From the NCBI GenBank assembly GCA_003660635.1, contig QMUP01000082.1, positions 1-5,107 on the forward strand: 5,107 nt of DNA, in the 5' to 3' direction. A program made the translations under genes and the position numbers. Source of the DNA: Candidatus Wolframiiraptor sp. (GTDB lineage Archaea; Thermoproteota; Nitrososphaeria_A; Caldarchaeales; Wolframiiraptoraceae). A model generated the notes under the pieces. It saw nothing but the letters and a program-made list of their open reading frames with translations, was not told the origin of the DNA and did no database searches. Numbering within the stretch: the stretch's first letter is position 1; each line of letters opens with the position of its first letter. Below, piece after piece: positions 1-5,107 of the stretch.

Positions 1-1982
1 CTCAGCTTCCGGATGAGCTCGTCAACCCCCTCGACGTTCCCCCTCACCGCCTGCTCCGCGGCCTTCAAGGCATTTACCAGAATATTGTGGAGTGATTCCG
101 AGGCGCTCTCCACGTTTATTCCGAGGTGCCTGAGGATCTCCGCGAATTCCCGCTGGGTTACTATCCCATCTTGGGTGGCGTCCACGAGTTCCCTGAAGGT
201 CTCTAACAAGAGGTCGCCGGCCTCCTTCGCCCCGAGCTGATATAGTTGAAGCGCCTGCTGGATCAGGCCATAGCTCTGCATCAAGTAGTTGAGGGTCTGC
301 TGGACGGCGGCGAGCCTCAGCTTGCTCTCCTCAGCCTCCCTCGATAACTGGACGTCGTATCCCATGGCCTCCGCGATCGCGAGCGAGATATCGTAGAAGT
401 TGCCGGCGAGCCCCACCGCCTTCCCGAATACGTCGAGGCTGGAGCCGAGTCCTTGGATGGAGTCAGTCAGTCCATCGATCTCGAGCTTCAATCCGCCTAT
501 CGCTGCCCCGGCCTCTCCGGCGAGCTGCCCCGATGCCTCCGCGATTCTGCCGAATTGCCCTGGTATCTCCGTCCCCGCCTCTATCGACCTGTTCATGAGG
601 TCCTGTATCTCCTGGGTCATTATCCCGAGGTGTTCGGCGATTCGGAGCGCTTCTTCCTCGGTGACCTTCCCCATCTCCACGTAGGAGATGATCCACCTCG
701 CCGCCTCCTCCTCGGTCACCCTGCCGAGCTTCATCTGGACCTCGATCGCCGACTCCAAGTTTCCCGCGAGGTCTCCGACGGCCTGGGCCACGATCCCCCT
801 CCAAGAGGCGAAGACCACCTCGACTGCGGGCAGGAAGACGCTTCCAAGATAGGTCGCTATATCGGATGCCGCCTCACCTATCCTCCTCTTCATGAAGTCG
901 ACTTCAGCCGAGATCGCGGCGAACCTCCCCTGGGTCGTCTCGAGCCAACGCCTATACGCCTCCCAAGTGGATCCACTTCTCTCGATCTCCCTCCTAAGAT
1001 CCCGGAAGCTCTCCGTCATCTGCATGAAGGTCGCCAGCGCCTTGACCGCCCTCACGTCCACTCCCCGGAGCCTCTCCTGAAGTGCCTCGAAGTCTCCCCC
1101 GAGCTCCCTCGCCCGCTCGATGACCTCCAAGATGACCTCGTTCGCGTCCCTCAGGGCTCCACCCGCATCCCTTATCGGGACCCCCAGCTTCCCAGCTATC
1201 TCATAGAGGTCGAGTAGGAACCTGTTCAGATGGGTTCCGGCCTCAACCGCCGACCCAAGCCTCCGCTCCAAGATCACCAGCCACGTGACCGCGTCCTCCA
1301 AACCCAAGCCCATGGCCCTGGCGGTGGCGCCGCAGTTCGCCAAGCCCTGCGCGAAGTCGCTTGCCGCCCCTATCCCCAGCCTCGAAGCGTTCACGAGGGC
1401 GTCCACAACCCTCTCCGCCTCGGAGCCCGCCACCCCAAACTGGGCCATTACCTGGACGAGATTCGAGCCGGCGGTGGCGAAGTCCACGGCCTCGAGCCTC
1501 GCCATCTGGACGACCGCGCCGAGGGCTGCGACGGCATCTCTCCCACTTAAACCGGCCTTCACCAAAGCCTCCAACGCCTGTAATGCCTCATTCGCCGAGA
1601 CCGCGAAGTCCCTCGCAGCCGCCGAGGCGGCCACCCTATACGCCTGAGCCAACGCGTTTACGTCCTGCCCCATCTCCCGGGTTAGCGCCGCGAGCCTGGT
1701 CGAAGCCGCCTCGAACTCGGCGAAGGCGTCTATGCTCTCCCTGACCCCGTCGACTACCTGGTTTAGGATGTTGAATCCGAGTAGCCCTGCCACAACGCCT
1801 CCGGCGACCTCCCCGATCCTCCGAAGCCTCGACGCGAGGTTTGAGAACCTCCTCGACGCCTGCTCGACCTCCCTCGACGTCCTCGACACGTGTTGGCTGA
1901 CGGCCTTGAGCGCCGAAGACGCCCGGTCAACCCCCTCTATAACCACCCTAACCAGGTAATATCCGCCCGCCACTTGGATCAC
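1..1982 (-). CDS. Phage tail tape measure protein, N-terminal 660 residues (C-terminus outside window)
   Basis: Sets tail length and fills the tail tube before DNA ejection. The frame is open from GTG 1982 to the window edge with no stop, so only the N-terminal 660 residues are visible. Residues 21-60 are a charged helical stretch, followed by a Gly/Val/Leu-rich segment at about 59-72. Residues 80-400 are Ala-rich and helical, with the repeated AL..L..AGL and A..F pattern of the phage minor tail/tape measure family (TIGR01760 type), for example EALVKAGLSGRDAVAALG near 138-155. Residues 420-460 and 601-620 carry related G-x-VT-xx-E motifs, the last inside an EF-hand-like loop. The GTG start overlaps the preceding stop as GTGA, and AGGAGGAGG lies about 11 nt upstream; the frame is also open upstream to a stop at 2037-2039, but with no better start. 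Family call is strong; exact start is moderate. Confidence 0.88.
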   Translation of the reverse strand, partial: MIQVAGGYYLVRVVIEGVDRASSALKAVSQHVSRTSREVEQASRRFSNLASRLRRIGEVAGGVVAGLLGFNILNQVVDGVRESIDAFAEFEAASTRLAALTREMGQDVNALAQAYRVAASAAARDFAVSANEALQALEALVKAGLSGRDAVAALGAVVQMARLEAVDFATAGSNLVQVMAQFGVAGSEAERVVDALVNASRLGIGAASDFAQGLANCGATARAMGLGLEDAVTWLVILERRLGSAVEAGTHLNRFLLDLYEIAGKLGVPIRDAGGALRDANEVILEVIERARELGGDFEALQERLRGVDVRAVKALATFMQMTESFRDLRREIERSGSTWEAYRRWLETTQGRFAAISAEVDFMKRRIGEAASDIATYLGSVFLPAVEVVFASWRGIVAQAVGDLAGNLESAIEVQMKLGRVTEEEAARWIISYVEMGKVTEEEALRIAEHLGIMTQEIQDLMNRSIEAGTEIPGQFGRIAEASGQLAGEAGAAIGGLKLEIDGLTDSIQGLGSSLDVFGKAVGLAGNFYDISLAIAEAMGYDVQLSREAEESKLRLAAVQQTLNYLMQSYGLIQQALQLYQLGAKEAGDLLLETFRELVDATQDGIVTQREFAEILRHLGINVESASESLHNILVNALKAAEQAVRGNVEGVDELIRKL
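147..182 (-). other. EF-hand-like loop inside the tape measure protein
   Basis: Residues 601-612 read DATQDGIVTQRE, followed by F. Positions 1, 5, 6, 8 and 12 (Asp, Asp, Gly, Val, Glu) fit the canonical calcium-binding EF-hand loop; position 3 is Thr instead of Asp/Asn/Ser and position 9 is Thr, which is allowed. Helices flank it on both sides (ETFRELV before, FAEILRHLG after). Confidence 0.45.
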
Positions 1983-2167
1983 CCTATGTAGAGCCTCCTC
2001 CTCTGAGCAGGCCTCAGCCTCCGATCCCTCCCACGCCTAACGAGCTCGGCCACGCCGCCCCCAGACCGCCTCCCGAGAAAGCCGAGTAAGCTGAGGTCGA
2101 AGATCCAGGCGGCCGGCCCATCGAATTCGAGGAGTTTGCTGGGCGGCGAGCCGAGTAGCATCGCCAA
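1979..2167 (-). CDS. T-like tail chaperone extension frame
   Basis: Small frame between the G-like gene and the tape measure. It carries GSPPSKLLEFDGPAAWIFDL, which resembles the PPSELLG...D.Y.A..FD signature I recall from T-type extensions of tail chaperones. This is recalled family knowledge, not a search result. The rest is rich in Arg and Gly (RRGRDRR, RPAQRRR) and ends in a TGA that overlaps the tape measure GTG. As a separate gene it would start at TTG 2167 (62 aa) or, better, ATG 2161 (60 aa), which has AGGTGA 7 nt upstream. Independent initiation therefore cannot be excluded, but the frame stays open and protein-like above both starts, which favours the frameshift fusion as the main product. 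Confidence 0.6.
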   Translation of the reverse strand: MAMLLGSPPSKLLEFDGPAAWIFDLSLLGFLGRRSGGGVAELVRRGRDRRLRPAQRRRLYIG

Positions 2168-2475
2168 TTCACCTACCGCGTCTCCGTAGACTCTGTGGAA
2201 AAACCCGCGGCCTTGACGGCTCTCCTTATCTCGTTTCCGACCTCGGCGATCAGCTTGAAGATCAGCTCGAACCTATGCTCCTCCATCGGCTTCGGCGTGA
2301 TGAACTTATCCAACTCCTCGATCGCGGTCTTCAGATCTTCTGCGAGCTGCTTCGCGCTTCCCAGGTTTTGGGGGTTCCCAGCCAACCCGTTTCCGAGGAG
2401 GTTGACGTAGGGGATCGCGTATGCGGGGAGGTCGACGACGTACTCGACTTCGCCGACCCTAATCCTAAACGGCAA
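1979..2475 (-). CDS. Predicted GT fusion chaperone made by -1 frameshift (165 aa)
   Basis: Predicted product of ribosomes that slip -1 at GGGTTTT (2206-2200): 92 residues of the G-like protein, then 73 residues in the other frame, ending at TGA 1981-1979. The -1 frame is open from a stop at 2273-2275 down to 1979, so it overlaps the end of G by about 100 nt without interruption. Read-through gives GFFHRVYGDAVGELAMLLGS across the junction, which looks like ordinary protein sequence. In lambda, gpG and gpGT are both needed, with the T part binding the tube protein and the G part binding the tape measure. The arrangement, shift direction and signal all match that model, but no expression evidence exists here. 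Confidence 0.68.
2173..2475 (-). CDS. Tail assembly chaperone, G-like
   Basis: A 100-residue protein directly after the tail tube gene and before the tape measure gene, the position of lambda gene G and its many counterparts. Such proteins bind the tape measure and recruit tube subunits, and are not in the mature virion. Residues 1-20 look like a beta hairpin (FRIRVGEVEYVVDL); residues 40-92 are mainly helical and charged, including EELDKFI and FELIFKLIAEVGNEIRRAVKAAG. No residue motif proves the family, so the call rests on size, position and the frameshift signal at codons 90-92. The TTG start is supported by a strong Shine-Dalgarno, GAGGTGA, 6 nt upstream. The last eight residues (STESTETR) are hydrophilic and low in complexity, as expected if they are only the tail of the unshifted form. 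Confidence 0.72.
   Translation of the reverse strand: MPFRIRVGEVEYVVDLPAYAIPYVNLLGNGLAGNPQNLGSAKQLAEDLKTAIEELDKFITPKPMEEHRFELIFKLIAEVGNEIRRAVKAAGFSTESTETR
2180..2191 (-). other. Possible frameshift-stimulating hairpin
   Basis: On the minus strand GTCT-ACGG-AGAC can form a 4-bp stem with a four-base loop, 8 nt after the slippery heptamer, which is a typical spacer for -1 sites. The stem is short and weak alone. A second possible stem lies further down, GGCGA/TCGCC between 2165 and 2145 with an 11-nt loop, so a larger fold or pseudoknot is possible but not shown. Confidence 0.35.
2200..2206 (-). other. Candidate programmed -1 frameshift slippery heptamer GGGTTTT
   Basis: In the G reading frame the codons are GCG GGT TTT TCC, so the seven bases G_GGT_TTT fit the X_XXY_YYZ rule exactly: GGT re-pairs as GGG and TTT stays TTT. 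A -1 shift enters precisely the frame of the T-like extension. The run is five T's long, which should help slippage. A small hairpin begins 8 nt downstream, and the unshifted stop (TAG, 2175-2173) comes 8 codons after the site. The lambda G/GT site is GGGAAAG, so the layout is equivalent although the bases differ. Confidence 0.68.
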
Positions 2476-2481
2476 AGAGAT

Positions 2482-2488
2482 TCACCTC
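2482..2488 (-). promoter_or_regulatory. Shine-Dalgarno of the G-like chaperone gene
   Basis: GAGGTGA, complementary to the usual 16S rRNA 3' end, sits 6 nt before TTG 2475. It fixes an unusual TTG start for the chaperone and lies between the tail tube stop (TAA 2497-2495) and that start. Confidence 0.65.
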
Positions 2489-2494
2489 GCCGAA

Positions 2495-3427
2495 TTAATA
2501 CTGGGTCACAGGGTTCGTCAAGGTGAACTTGATCACATCATCGTTCGATGGCTTAAGCGCCGCGAAGTCTATGCTCTGGGTTATCGGCTCCGAGCCGGAG
2601 ATCTCGGCGCTCCAAGCCGAGTATACTATTCTCGGGAGCTCTATCTCGAGTTGGTTGTGGTATTCTCCCTCGATCGCGTCGCCGGTTAACGTGATCTTCA
2701 TCGAGACCTCTTCCTCGTTCAGGAAGTCATCGAGCTGACTCCTATCCTCGAATCTGAGATCCATGCTCCCCGTGACCTCGAGTTCTCCGAGTTCGTGCCT
2801 CGTCAGGTACCGCGATCCGATGACGTGGTGATCCCCCGATGGATTATTGTTTATCTCCAGGGTCAGCGCCCTGAGCTCCGCCTCGACGCCGCCTATCGTG
2901 ATCGAGGCATCTCCCGAATGCCAGCACCTAACCGAAGGGAAGCTCGGGGTAACCGGCGAAGCCTGCTCCTCCTTCTGCCCGAGTATGCTCGCCGTCGCCG
3001 AGACATATTCTCCCGGGGCGAACTCCACGCTGAGCGACTCCAAGATCGCTGACACGATCCTCCTCGCCACATCATCTCCGCCGACTTCAAGCGTGTAGGT
3101 GGCCGGTTCCTCTCCAACCTCGCATGGAGTGAAGATGTGTTGATAGACTGATGGGGCGTTGGTGGGGTCGGGTTGGCTGCTCTCAACCTTTCCGAGGAGC
3201 ATCAGGAGGAAGTCTCCGAATAGCTCGGGATCCACTTGGAACTCAACCTCGCCCGTGACCACGACGTTTCCCGGCGCCTTATCGAGTGGAAACCTCGACG
3301 CCACGCTCCTCCGAAGGATAGGCTCCTTCTCGCTCGCGATGTCTATCCTAAGCGGGTCCAAGAACTTGTTCGGGGCAACGGCGGCTCCGAAACTCGACTC
3401 CTTACCCAAACCGAGGTACCTGCTCAT
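2495..3427 (-). CDS. Major tail tube protein
   Basis: A 310-residue protein, mostly predicted beta strands, that should polymerise into the tail tube. It opens with SRYLGLGKESSFGAA, a beginning common in phage tail tube proteins (Phage_tube_2 type: short N-terminus, then G-E-x-x-x-G). Two stretches look like copies of one half-domain: VTGEVEFQVDPELFGDFLL at about 58-76 and VTGSMDLRFEDRSQLDDFLN at about 218-237, fitting a tube fold with internal repetition. A glycine-containing segment around 100-150 (YTLEVGG, APGEYVSATASILG) matches the strand pattern seen in this family. It is followed by the chaperone pair and tape measure, the standard order. A GTG directly before the ATG (3430) could also start it; ATG is preferred because the upstream 12-bp promoter-like box is then 25 nt away, close to the 24 nt seen for the operon's first gene. 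Confidence 0.82.
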   Translation of the reverse strand: MSRYLGLGKESSFGAAVAPNKFLDPLRIDIASEKEPILRRSVASRFPLDKAPGNVVVTGEVEFQVDPELFGDFLLMLLGKVESSQPDPTNAPSVYQHIFTPCEVGEEPATYTLEVGGDDVARRIVSAILESLSVEFAPGEYVSATASILGQKEEQASPVTPSFPSVRCWHSGDASITIGGVEAELRALTLEINNNPSGDHHVIGSRYLTRHELGELEVTGSMDLRFEDRSQLDDFLNEEEVSMKITLTGDAIEGEYHNQLEIELPRIVYSAWSAEISGSEPITQSIDFAALKPSNDDVIKFTLTNPVTQY

Positions 3428-3445
3428 CACCGCCCATGAACAAGC

Positions 3446-3877
3446 TCAGAGTATTTTTCGCATCAAATCGGAGATGAGGTCCCCGATTCCGTCGTCGAAG
3501 TCCCTCGATGCCTCGGCAACCGCCCTCGCCATTATCCTCATAGGCCTGGTCCCCGGGTGCTCGACATATCTCGCGTAAACCAGTTCTCCCCGGATCTCGA
3601 ATCTAAGCGCCCTCGCCCTCCTCGGCCTTATCACGTGGGGTCTGGCGCCGAACTCCAAGTAGGCCGCATATGGCGCGCGTCCCCCGCCCATCACGACCTC
3701 GTATCCCGATCTAATTCTCCGAACCCCGATGCTCTCCCTGAGTCTACCAGTCTTCTTAGGGGCGATCCTCCTCGCCTCTCGTAGAATCAGCCCGGCGAAG
3801 AACCTCGACGCCTCCGCGCTCAACCCCCTCAAACTCCTCAACGCTTTAACGAGTTTGTCGGCTCCCTCGATCCTCAA
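3446..3877 (-). CDS. HK97 gp10-like head-tail joining / minor tail protein
   Basis: A 143-residue protein with the hallmarks of the HK97-gp10-like family: ARRIAPKKTGRLRESI at 35-50, YAAYLEFGARPHVI at 70-83, and HPGTRPMRIMARAVAEA at 107-123. The family works at the connector between capsid and tail. Length is normal. It starts with TTG whose bases overlap the previous gene's TGA (TTGA), implying translational coupling; no Shine-Dalgarno is well placed and no better start lies nearby. The gene ends 15-18 nt before the tail tube gene, and its final codons (DLMRKIL) contain the 12-bp promoter-like element described separately. Strongly basic C-terminal half with many AGG codons. Confidence 0.88.
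   Translation of the reverse strand: MRIEGADKLVKALRSLRGLSAEASRFFAGLILREARRIAPKKTGRLRESIGVRRIRSGYEVVMGGGRAPYAAYLEFGARPHVIRPRRARALRFEIRGELVYARYVEHPGTRPMRIMARAVAEASRDFDDGIGDLISDLMRKIL
3453..3464 (-). promoter_or_regulatory. Possible internal promoter for the tail tube gene
   Basis: The same GATGCGAAAAAT, within the last codons of the gp10-like gene, ends 25 nt before ATG 3427 (22 nt before GTG 3430). Similarity extends further upstream: ATTTG precedes the box directly here and with GGG inserted at the operon head. An extra promoter here would suit the most abundant tail protein. Because it also encodes protein, chance cannot be excluded. Confidence 0.4.
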
Positions 3878-4293
3878 GCCTCGACTATCACCTCGACGAC
3901 CAAGTATATCCTGTGGCCGTAAGCCGAGGTGGACGGCGCCTCGACCCTCTCAAAGGATATCGGCCGGGCATCCCTCACCAATCCGCCTAAACTTCGATCG
4001 TTCATGATCTCGGAGTATATCGCCCACATGATCTTCTTGGCCTGAGAGTAGGCGATGGATGGGTCGCCGCTGACAGCGTCTATCACGTATTCGAATCTCC
4101 AGATATGCTGCCTCCTCCCCCCAACGGTTACATCCATCATCTCCCCATTCCTTATCCAGATGAAGACCCTCGGGGACTTGAAGCCGCGTTCAAGCGAAGG
4201 CTCCGAAACCGACACCTCCTCAACTCCCTCAATTCTCCGCGCGATCGAGGCCAGGGCCCCCTCGACTTCCTCGAAGAGCGACTCCAGATCCAT
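3874..4293 (-). CDS. Probable tail terminator / tail completion protein
   Basis: A 139-residue protein, first gene of the minus-strand tail operon. Residues 1-22 form an acidic-basic amphipathic helix (LESLFEEVEGALASIARRIE). Then come strands RVFIWI (42-47) and RFEYVID (66-72), a helix SIAYSQAKKIMWAIYSEIM (79-97), SLGGLV, and a closing strand IYLVVEVIVEA. This strand-helix-strand plan with LGG.V and a final beta strand is what small tail terminator/completion proteins (lambda gpU-type fold) show, and the position next to a gp10-like gene agrees. No conserved catalytic motif exists in that family, so this is a fold-and-context call. ATG 4293 is chosen because a TATA-like box lies 24 nt upstream; longer in-frame starts up to 4407 would run through the divergent promoter. 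A head-closure or connector protein is the main alternative. Confidence 0.58.
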   Translation of the reverse strand: MDLESLFEEVEGALASIARRIEGVEEVSVSEPSLERGFKSPRVFIWIRNGEMMDVTVGGRRQHIWRFEYVIDAVSGDPSIAYSQAKKIMWAIYSEIMNDRSLGGLVRDARPISFERVEAPSTSAYGHRIYLVVEVIVEA

Positions 4294-4313
4294 CGCGTTA
4301 GACGATCTATGAA

Positions 4314-4326
4314 GCGAATTTTTCGC
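4314..4326. repeat. 13-bp inverted repeat over the minus-strand TATA-like box
   Basis: GCGAA-TTT-TTCGC, two perfect 5-bp arms around a 3-bp centre, covers the A/T part of the tail operon's promoter-like element. A further pair, CGCAT-6-ATGCG (4324-4339), overlaps its right arm. Either could be a regulator site; the symmetric A/T centre could also partly reflect the promoter itself. Confidence 0.42.
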
Positions 4327-4329
4327 ATC
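4318..4329 (-). promoter_or_regulatory. Promoter-like BRE/TATA element of the tail operon
   Basis: Minus-strand GATGCGAAAAAT ends 24 nt before ATG 4293. GCGAAA resembles an archaeal BRE and AAAAAT a degenerate TATA box; centred about 27 nt from the ATG, it would give a leaderless or nearly leaderless transcript. The identical 12 bases occur ahead of the tail tube gene. Confidence 0.5.
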
Positions 4330-4339
4330 CCCAAATGCG

Positions 4340-4347
4340 TAAAATAC
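4340..4347 (+). promoter_or_regulatory. TATA-like box of the plus-strand genes
   Basis: TAAAATAC lies 21 nt before GTG 4369, so its centre is about 26 nt from the start codon, the distance expected for a leaderless archaeal transcript. It is one of the few A/T-rich stretches in this GC-rich region. No clear BRE precedes it. Confidence 0.4.
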
Positions 4348-4353
4348 ACAACC

Positions 4354-4369
4354 CATCTCCGCGGAGATG
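4354..4369. promoter_or_regulatory. Perfect 16-bp palindrome, candidate operator
   Basis: CATCTCCGCGGAGATG is identical to its own reverse complement over all 16 bases. It sits between the plus-strand TATA-like box and ends on the first base of GTG 4369, where a bound dimer would block initiation of the plus-strand genes. In RNA it could also fold as a short stem close to the start. Confidence 0.5.
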
Positions 4370-4746
4370 TGACCGAAGAAGGAGGCCGGATAAACAAGAT
4401 CCTCCACGACCTCATCCGAAAATACGAGACTCTCTCCAAGAGGTTCGATGAATCATCTGGGGAGATGTCGCTGACCCAATTGACAAAACACGTCGACGCG
4501 CTTACCAGGCTCGCGAAGCTTATCCTGAGTTATCGCGGTTTACTCGAGTTCGAGGAGAGGGAGCGCGAGCTGACGAGGATCCTCTCCGAGGTGAGGAGAG
4601 AGGTCGAGTCGGATAAGCATCCCCTCAAAACCGTGAAGACCTATGGAATCAATTCGTTTGCCTCGGTCGAGGACTTGGCGAGAGAATTACTCGAGGAGAT
4701 CAAGAGGATGAAGTTCACCTTCATGGGAGGCGAGGGAATTGAGTGA
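4369..4746 (+). CDS. Unknown mostly helical charged protein, divergent from tail operon
   Basis: I do not recognise this gene. From GTG 4369 it encodes 125 residues, nearly all predicted helix: RINKILHDLIRKYETLSKRF (7-26), then LTQLTKHVDALTRLAKLILSYRG (35-57), a Glu/Arg-rich coiled-coil-like run EFEERERELTRILSEVRREVE (60-80), and a final helix SVEDLARELLEEIKRMK. The HVDALTRLAKLI...EERERELTRI pattern recalls small terminase subunits or other oligomeric DNA-binding viral proteins, but this is a weak likeness and no DNA-binding motif is clear. GTG 4369 is chosen because a TATA-like TAAAATAC ends 21 nt before it. ATG 4309 would add 20 residues (MKRIFRIPKC...) read through the palindromes, with no promoter-like box ahead. 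Upstream extension to 4105 is antisense to the terminator gene. It overlaps the next gene by 8 nt. Confidence 0.6.
   Translation: MTEEGGRINKILHDLIRKYETLSKRFDESSGEMSLTQLTKHVDALTRLAKLILSYRGLLEFEERERELTRILSEVRREVESDKHPLKTVKTYGINSFASVEDLARELLEEIKRMKFTFMGGEGIE
4725..4730 (+). promoter_or_regulatory. Shine-Dalgarno of the truncated plus-strand gene
   Basis: GGGAGG lies 8 nt before TTG 4739, within the last codons of the preceding gene. It decides the TTG start and implies coupled translation of the pair. Confidence 0.6.
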
Positions 4747-5107
4747 AACATTATCCGAGAAGATCAAGTCGCTGAAACCCGGGGAATACGTGGAGGTGCT
4801 GTGGGGAGACGCCTGCGTCTACGAGAGGGTAACCGATAAAATGCTCAAGCAGCTGAAGCCCGAGCACCTGGATACCCCGATGAGGAGCGTTGGAAAATTC
4901 TTGGGCATAAGGAGCGGCAGGCTCATGGATTACCTAGTCCTCTGGATTGGGCAAGATGAGAAGGGGCATAGATTGGCGATAATCCCGCTCTCACTCGTGC
5001 TCGACGTCCACCCATCATCTGGACAGAAACCCCTCAAAAAACCCATGATAAGCCACAGATTCCACAGGCTACATGGAAAAGCCGTCAAGATATTCGGGGT
5101 GAAGAAA
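4739..5107 (+). CDS. Unknown protein, N-terminal 123 residues (truncated by window)
   Basis: Open from TTG 4739 to the window end with no stop. The TTG start is well supported by GGGAGG 8 nt upstream, inside the end of the previous gene; the frames overlap by 8 nt, so the two are probably co-transcribed and coupled. The protein begins SETLSEKIKSLKPGEYVEVL and continues with short strands (YVEVLWG, CVYERV), a helix (KMLKQLKPEHL), MRSVGKFLGI, then two hydrophobic strands LMDYLVLWIG and HRLAIIPLSLVLDVHP, and a basic stretch rich in Lys, Arg and His (KPLKKP, SHRFHRLHGK). This suggests a small beta-barrel-like domain with a basic tail that could bind nucleic acid. I do not recognise the family, and the function is not inferable from sequence alone. 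Confidence 0.68.
   Translation, partial: MSETLSEKIKSLKPGEYVEVLWGDACVYERVTDKMLKQLKPEHLDTPMRSVGKFLGIRSGRLMDYLVLWIGQDEKGHRLAIIPLSLVLDVHPSSGQKPLKKPMISHRFHRLHGKAVKIFGVKK

Follow-up and report, generated by a model that had tools for sequence, protein, structure and literature searches.

We propose that two overlapping frames on the minus strand of contig QMUP01000082.1 (Candidatus Wolframiiraptor sp.), positions 2475 to 1979, form one recoded gene in which a -1 frameshift at G_GGU_UUU would join a predicted tail chaperone, G, to a second part, T. The gene would thus be a tail chaperone of the lambda G/GT type, belonging to a likely archaeal tailed virus, and judged from sequence comparison we hold this reading with good confidence. 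The window, i.e. the whole stretch of DNA that was analysed, is a 5107-base contig of an incomplete assembly of 1.23 megabases. Frameshifting is favoured because relatives of the window keep the pairing of the two frames together with in-phase slip sites, both where T lies in the -1 frame of G (19 of 22 pairs) and where it lies in the +1 frame (19 of 20 pairs). A sequence-only reading of the same DNA had already put forward recoding of the lambda type; that proposal agrees with the order of the genes and the relation of the two frames as well as with the in-phase heptamer and what is conserved among relatives.

G (2173..2475, minus strand) comprises 100 amino acids (aa), from a TTG start at 2475 to a TAG stop at 2175-2173, and has homologues in 22 protein clusters. 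Its start is preceded at 6 nucleotides (nt) by the Shine-Dalgarno-like motif GAGGTGA (2482..2488, minus strand). Such motifs were scored against GGAGGTGAT. The slippery heptamer GGGTTTT lies at 2206-2200 of the minus strand in the phase G_GGT_TTT: the leading G comes from codon 90, and GGT and TTT are codons 91 and 92 of G, exactly as the sequence-only reading had placed them. The -1 frame is open from 2272, directly after a stop at 2275, to the TGA at 1981-1979, and overlaps G by 97 nt, where the sequence-only reading gives about 100 nt. After the shift, the T part would extend over 1979..2206 (minus strand). The junction of the predicted fusion reads AAG-FFHRVYG, and the motifs PPS-x-LL and AW-x-FD named earlier are present in the T frame as PPSKLL and AWIFD. 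In the long frames of the locus, GGT represents 10% of the glycine (Gly) codons and TTT 17% of the phenylalanine (Phe) codons. On its own, the window proves little, because some in-phase XXXYYYZ is expected in 12% of such overlaps (a chance of 0.12 by codon resampling). The heptamer thus does not exceed chance in the window alone, but does so once the relatives (42 G/T pairs, see below) are included.

In the proposed mechanism, most ribosomes would stop at 2175 and produce G, and a minority would slip back one base on G_GGU_UUU and continue to produce a G-T fusion. The Gly transfer RNA (tRNA) in the P site and the GAA tRNA-Phe in the A site would re-pair on GGG and UUU, respectively. By analogy with lambda, the many copies of G would bind the tape measure protein and the few copies of GT would, via T, recruit the tube protein. 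In the +1 relatives, tRNA-Phe paired with UUU would instead move forward onto UUC as a CGN codon awaits decoding in the A site. Among the tRNA loci of the window's own genome (30 scanned of 31 matches), one tRNA-Phe (anticodon GAA) and a tRNA-Gly (CCC) were found; a tRNA-Gly reading GGT was not seen among these 30 loci, which may reflect an assembly gap.

All 22 protein matches to G, one of which (P0001) represents the window's own cluster, keep AAGFS, and 36 columns are invariant among 23 aligned G sequences, including A89, A90, G91, F92 and S93. DNA of near relatives was available for few of the 22 clusters. Two of these relatives, the loci L005 and L019, carry GGGTTTT in the same phase as the window. 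In the window, L004, L005 and L019, T is in the -1 frame of G and F-x-R-x-YG follows the site, and in the latter three a T-frame stop is located just upstream of it. Homologous T frames were also found in a wider alignment: P22, S23, L26 and D37 are nearly invariant among 24 aligned T sequences, as Y12, P61 and P63 are invariant among 24 aligned G sequences. The G and T proteins of the -1 and +1 groups look homologous in outline at this level of comparison. An AlphaFold2 model of G has a mean predicted local distance difference test score of 90.5 and is confident to about residue 90, after which the score is low (mean of 52 for residues 91-100); in the model, the shift would therefore fall where the folded part of G ends. 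One T-like protein, P0027, shares with the window's T the 36 residues that follow from ATG 2161 but has a different end; its contig is perhaps rearranged or chimeric.

Wider relatives were collected with tube-protein and alignment searches, which matched 15 of 101 related genomes, 18 of 44 genomes in the order, 35 of 398 in the phylum and 8 of 256 in the class of G339 (the last at an expectation value (E) of 1e-15) and also covered viral contigs. The G alignment was searched against named genomes and viral contigs; the searched sets overlap. A total of 42 G/T pairs was chosen by eye, with near-copies (L007/L008, L011/L012 and L023/L024) included. Excluded were L003/L020 (G runs off the contig; their assembly is represented by a second contig, L019), L013/L041/L054 (no recognisable G/T pair 3' of the tube gene), L030/L073 (odd tube frame), L053 and L105 (contig ends), three loci in which G was not read (L063, L067 and L102), the distant and unclassed L096-L100 and L107, the loci used for comparison (L085-L093) and duplicate entries for one place. 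Halovirus HF2 was counted separately; with HF2 included, the +1 count becomes 20 of 21.

A -1 relation was found in 22 of the 42 pairs, the window included, and 19 of these have a perfect in-phase heptamer: AAAAAAC in four, GGGTTTT and CCCTTTT in three each, AAATTTC, TTTTTTA and CCCTTTG in two each, and AAATTTT, CCCTTTA and AAAAAAA once each. L065 has two in-phase heptamers, the second being AAACCCC, at a chance of 0.63. The remaining 20 pairs are in a +1 relation, with an in-phase TTT_CGN in 19; the window does not belong to this UUU_CGN type, as its T is in the -1 frame of G. The per-locus chance, calculated for 38 pairs, ranges from 0.015 to 0.63 for the heptamers and is at most 0.025 for TTT_CGN (16 tested). 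Given Phe-Arg at the 19 TTT_CGN loci, the probability that all use TTT is 10^-8.7 and that all use CGN 10^-6.6, based on the loci's own codon use and with relatedness ignored. Additionally, TTT represents just 5% (L007) and 3% (L008) of the Phe codons in two of the loci. Since TTT_CGN is improbable from codon use and TTT is rare in L007 and L008, selection likely acts on the codons of this motif.

Several observations weigh against the recoding proposed here, in addition to the chance expectation for the window given above. L004 has GCG GGG TTT, i.e. G_GGG_TTT instead of the exact heptamer, with identical bases in L017 and L021; there, perfect re-pairing would be open to the tRNA-Gly of the P site alone. 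This one relative, which keeps both frames, thus partly fits the pattern that the sequence-only reading had named as refuting, namely homologues with both proteins but without the heptamer. The two other -1 pairs without a perfect heptamer, L057 and L062, have G_GAT_TTT at the site (ATG GAT TTT CCC), and the single +1 miss, L106 (2443-2970), reads TTC CGT TTT CTT CGC, with no in-phase TTT_CGN. No structure more stable than in dinucleotide shuffles was detected in the 80 nt 3' of the window's heptamer (z of +0.50, with 134 of 200 shuffles folding as well), which leaves the small downstream hairpin of the sequence-only reading unsupported. Neither G nor T of the window has a Pfam match, profile comparison yielded no named family for T, and a fold comparison of the G model with the PDB gave no clear hit.

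The 80 nt after the site fold no better than dinucleotide shuffles in L004 (z of -0.62), L019 (+0.43) and L006 (-0.35), and L005, alone of the relatives folded, is somewhat stable there (z of -2.02, 7 of 200 shuffles as good). The family phrog_35846 (function unknown) matches the window's G at E 0.025 and two of the 24 G members at E 0.00023 at best; one of the 24 weakly matches a tail-chaperone family (E 0.015), and among viral folds the G model weakly matches entries annotated as tail assembly chaperone (E 0.26-1.1). At the deviating sites of L057 and L062, re-pairing would be limited to the Phe codon, which points to a slip on TTTT in the P site; in L106, CTT_CGC or TTT_CTT could yield the same +1 frame.

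Among the alternatives, the likeliest overlaps with the recoding just described: GT would arise by -1 frameshifting and a short free T would be translated in addition from an internal start, a combination that we consider rather unlikely. The window carries both signals, the heptamer and an AGGTGA (2169..2174, minus strand) located 7 nt upstream of ATG 2161, and T-frame starts with Shine-Dalgarno-like signals are enriched over all pairs. Compared with 8158 control starts from the same loci, the 80 T-frame starts of the 42 pairs more often have at least four matching bases (38.75% vs 21.5%) and at least five (13.75% vs 6.1%), with no excess for at least six (1.25% vs 1.8%). A T-frame start with at least four matching bases is present in 22 of the 42 pairs, and one with at least five in 10. 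This enrichment favours internal starts in part of the set, where they may supplement frameshifting, and it slightly lowers our confidence in the recoded gene. However, the internal signal is missing in four of the five near relatives: a T-frame start whose signal matches in at least four bases is absent from L004, L005, L006 and L022, and L019 has one of five.

The same enrichment counts for T as a separate protein translated from ATG 2161, through its own Shine-Dalgarno motif or coupling to the stop of G, in which case the heptamer would be incidental; we regard this as improbable. The ATG named in the sequence-only reading does exist, the strength of AGGTGA is close to that of the signal before G, which again speaks against recoding, T-like proteins in databases start at a downstream methionine, and the chance of 0.12 for an in-phase heptamer in the window leaves room for coincidence. 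On the other hand, 3 of the 42 pairs (the near-copies L023 and L024, and L057) have no T-frame ATG, GTG or TTG in the stretch searched, which reached 60 nt beyond G; this supports recoding. ATG 2161 moreover lies inside the conserved LAxxLGxRPS, and a start there would remove F-x-R-x-YG, common to L004, L005 and L019. An independent T also leaves the TTT_CGN in 19 of 20 +1 pairs unexplained. Finally, the contig is short and its assembly incomplete, but an assembly error or the decay of one gene as the cause of the frame change is extremely improbable, with homologous G and T in the same frame relation in other assemblies and contigs (L004, L005, L019 and L021).

Within the proposed recoding, what is new here is the occurrence of -1 pairs among +1 pairs within one tube family, each with a Phe codon at the site. 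All 25 pairs with a tube protein of the window's family have this codon, and the tube tree places the -1 rows among the +1 rows. A tree of 19 rows needs three direction changes and does not reject a single -1 clade (approximately unbiased test, p-AU of 0.118), a tree of 23 rows needs two and rejects one clade (p-AU of 0.0138), and in the latter, once the long-branch L010 and L029 are removed, a weakly supported branch (48/82) separates the -1 rows from all others. We are unsure of the number of direction changes, including the second change (L010).

Based on the site pattern, the distribution of PF08608 and analogy, we tentatively suggest that A-site tRNA-Phe might slip back in one group (G_GGU_UUU, A_AAU_UUY) and P-site tRNA-Phe forward in its neighbours (UUU_CGN), such that the direction would have evolved around a constant pivot tRNA. 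The host's wyosine level might then set the G:GT ratio and, through it, tail assembly, since wyosine derivatives in archaea are borne by tRNA-Phe. Their place in archaeal tRNA-Phe is position 37 (PMC7761594). A link between wye modification and frameshifting on U-rich sites is raised in PMC5009743. The wyosine gene family PF08608 occurs in 43 of the order's 44 genomes and, among 14 control genomes, in three archaea, which supports the wyosine idea, as does the one tRNA-Phe (GAA) among the 30 tRNA loci. Yet PF08608 was not matched in Haloferax, whereas halovirus HF2 (L092) has an in-phase TTT_CGC, and Pseudomonas phage Ab18 appears to use T_TTT_TTC; Phe sites therefore occur without PF08608, which argues against a role of wyosine. 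Some sites of the wider -1 set contain no Phe codon (AAAAAAC in four, AAAAAAA in one), which also counts against the wyosine idea.

The -1 shift between gpG and gpGT of lambda uses the slip site GGGAAAG. The window resembles the lambda type in its two small genes between tube and tape measure, the -1 frame that is open through the overlap and the in-phase X_XXY_YYZ, and the mechanism predicted for it is like the -1 G/T mechanism of gpG/gpGT (PMC5009743). Unlike lambda, it has G_GGU_UUU, with Phe and not Lys in the A site, an archaeal source, and G and T proteins without detectable sequence kinship to named chaperone families beyond weak matches. According to PMC5009743, G_GGU_UUU ranks with the -1 heptamers on which mammalian ribosomes shift most readily, which favours the recoding proposed here.

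Both the prediction of G/T frameshifts for viruses of haloarchaea and the TTT-CGC motif of the HF1 group have already been published. A -1 G/T shift, as predicted for the window, is reported or predicted in HVTV-1, HCTV-1, HCTV-2, HCTV-5 and Hardycor1 (PMC5009743, PMC8211752, PMC7911831), the hosts of which are halophiles; PMC10885494 is a further source on haloarchaeal G/T shifts. A +1 G/T shift is reported or predicted for HSTV-2, and TTT-CGC is proposed for the HF1 group (PMC7230728). The motif of the HF1 group is that of 19 of our 20 +1 relatives, whereas the window itself would shift -1; unlike the HF1 group, these relatives were found in other archaeal genomes and on viral contigs for which no host is named. 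The UUU_CGN +1 motif is also known from influenza A PA-X and amalgavirus (cited in PMC7230728), which are unrelated RNA viruses and genes in which only the slip is alike. The main text of PMC11705971, on archaeal proviruses, does not contain the word 'frameshift', and among the papers listed by a literature search none deals, judged by title or start of the abstract, with a G/T shift in viruses of Thaumarchaeota or Aigarchaeota, which is weak evidence of absence. A type of recoding known from phages thus likely also operates in a little-studied archaeal group, and predicted G/GT recoding is extended beyond halophile viruses to assemblies titled Thaumarchaeota and other genomes of the same phylum. 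The sites form a natural series in which both slip directions use a Phe codon, making two questions testable: archaeal frameshifting on U-rich sites without RNA structure, and its tuning by wyosine in tRNA-Phe.

The source of the window is taken to be archaeal because PF01199, a ribosomal protein family, is present in its own genome and, among 14 control genomes, matches only Methanocaldococcus and Sulfolobus. All four loci that the G search matched in named assemblies (three assemblies) are on contigs titled Thaumarchaeota archaeon, in line with the archaeal origin supposed in the sequence-only reading. The window likely represents a tailed virus or provirus of archaea. The virus of L004 was also found on a viral-collection contig (L021) and L009 sits within a contig of 733 kilobases (kb), so some members of the family are likely proviruses.

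On the minus strand, the gene order is possible tail terminator, neck, tube, G, T and tape measure. The tape measure gene (3..1982), truncated by the contig end, matches PF10145 (E 3.4e-27) and phrog_991 (E 9.6e-27), and its GTG start at 1982 overlaps the stop of the T frame. Upstream of G are the tail tube gene (2495..3430; PF18906, E 4.6e-38; phrog_290, E 4.9e-47) and an HK97-gp10-like neck gene (3446..3877; PF04883, E 1.3e-9; phrog_5, E 9.6e-18). The possible tail terminator (3874..4407) is assigned weakly, from its position and phrog_4204 (E 0.014), which ranks below phrog_8346 (function unknown; E 0.0015). Two of the excluded loci deviate in the tube region. L013 (G012) has a tube gene without a recognised G/T pair in the 1.5 kb downstream, unlike the similar L011/L012, and is possibly a decayed provirus. 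The tube frame of L030 (1593-3617) encodes 675 aa compared with about 311 in its kin; its first part matches the tube protein and a match to the later part of PF18906 lies at residues 502-604, such that a few hundred residues, to which no Pfam name could be given, seem to be inserted. In the window itself, two frames for which no family scored above the cut-off (213 aa and at least 123 aa) are located on the plus strand at 4105-5107, opposite the tail genes.

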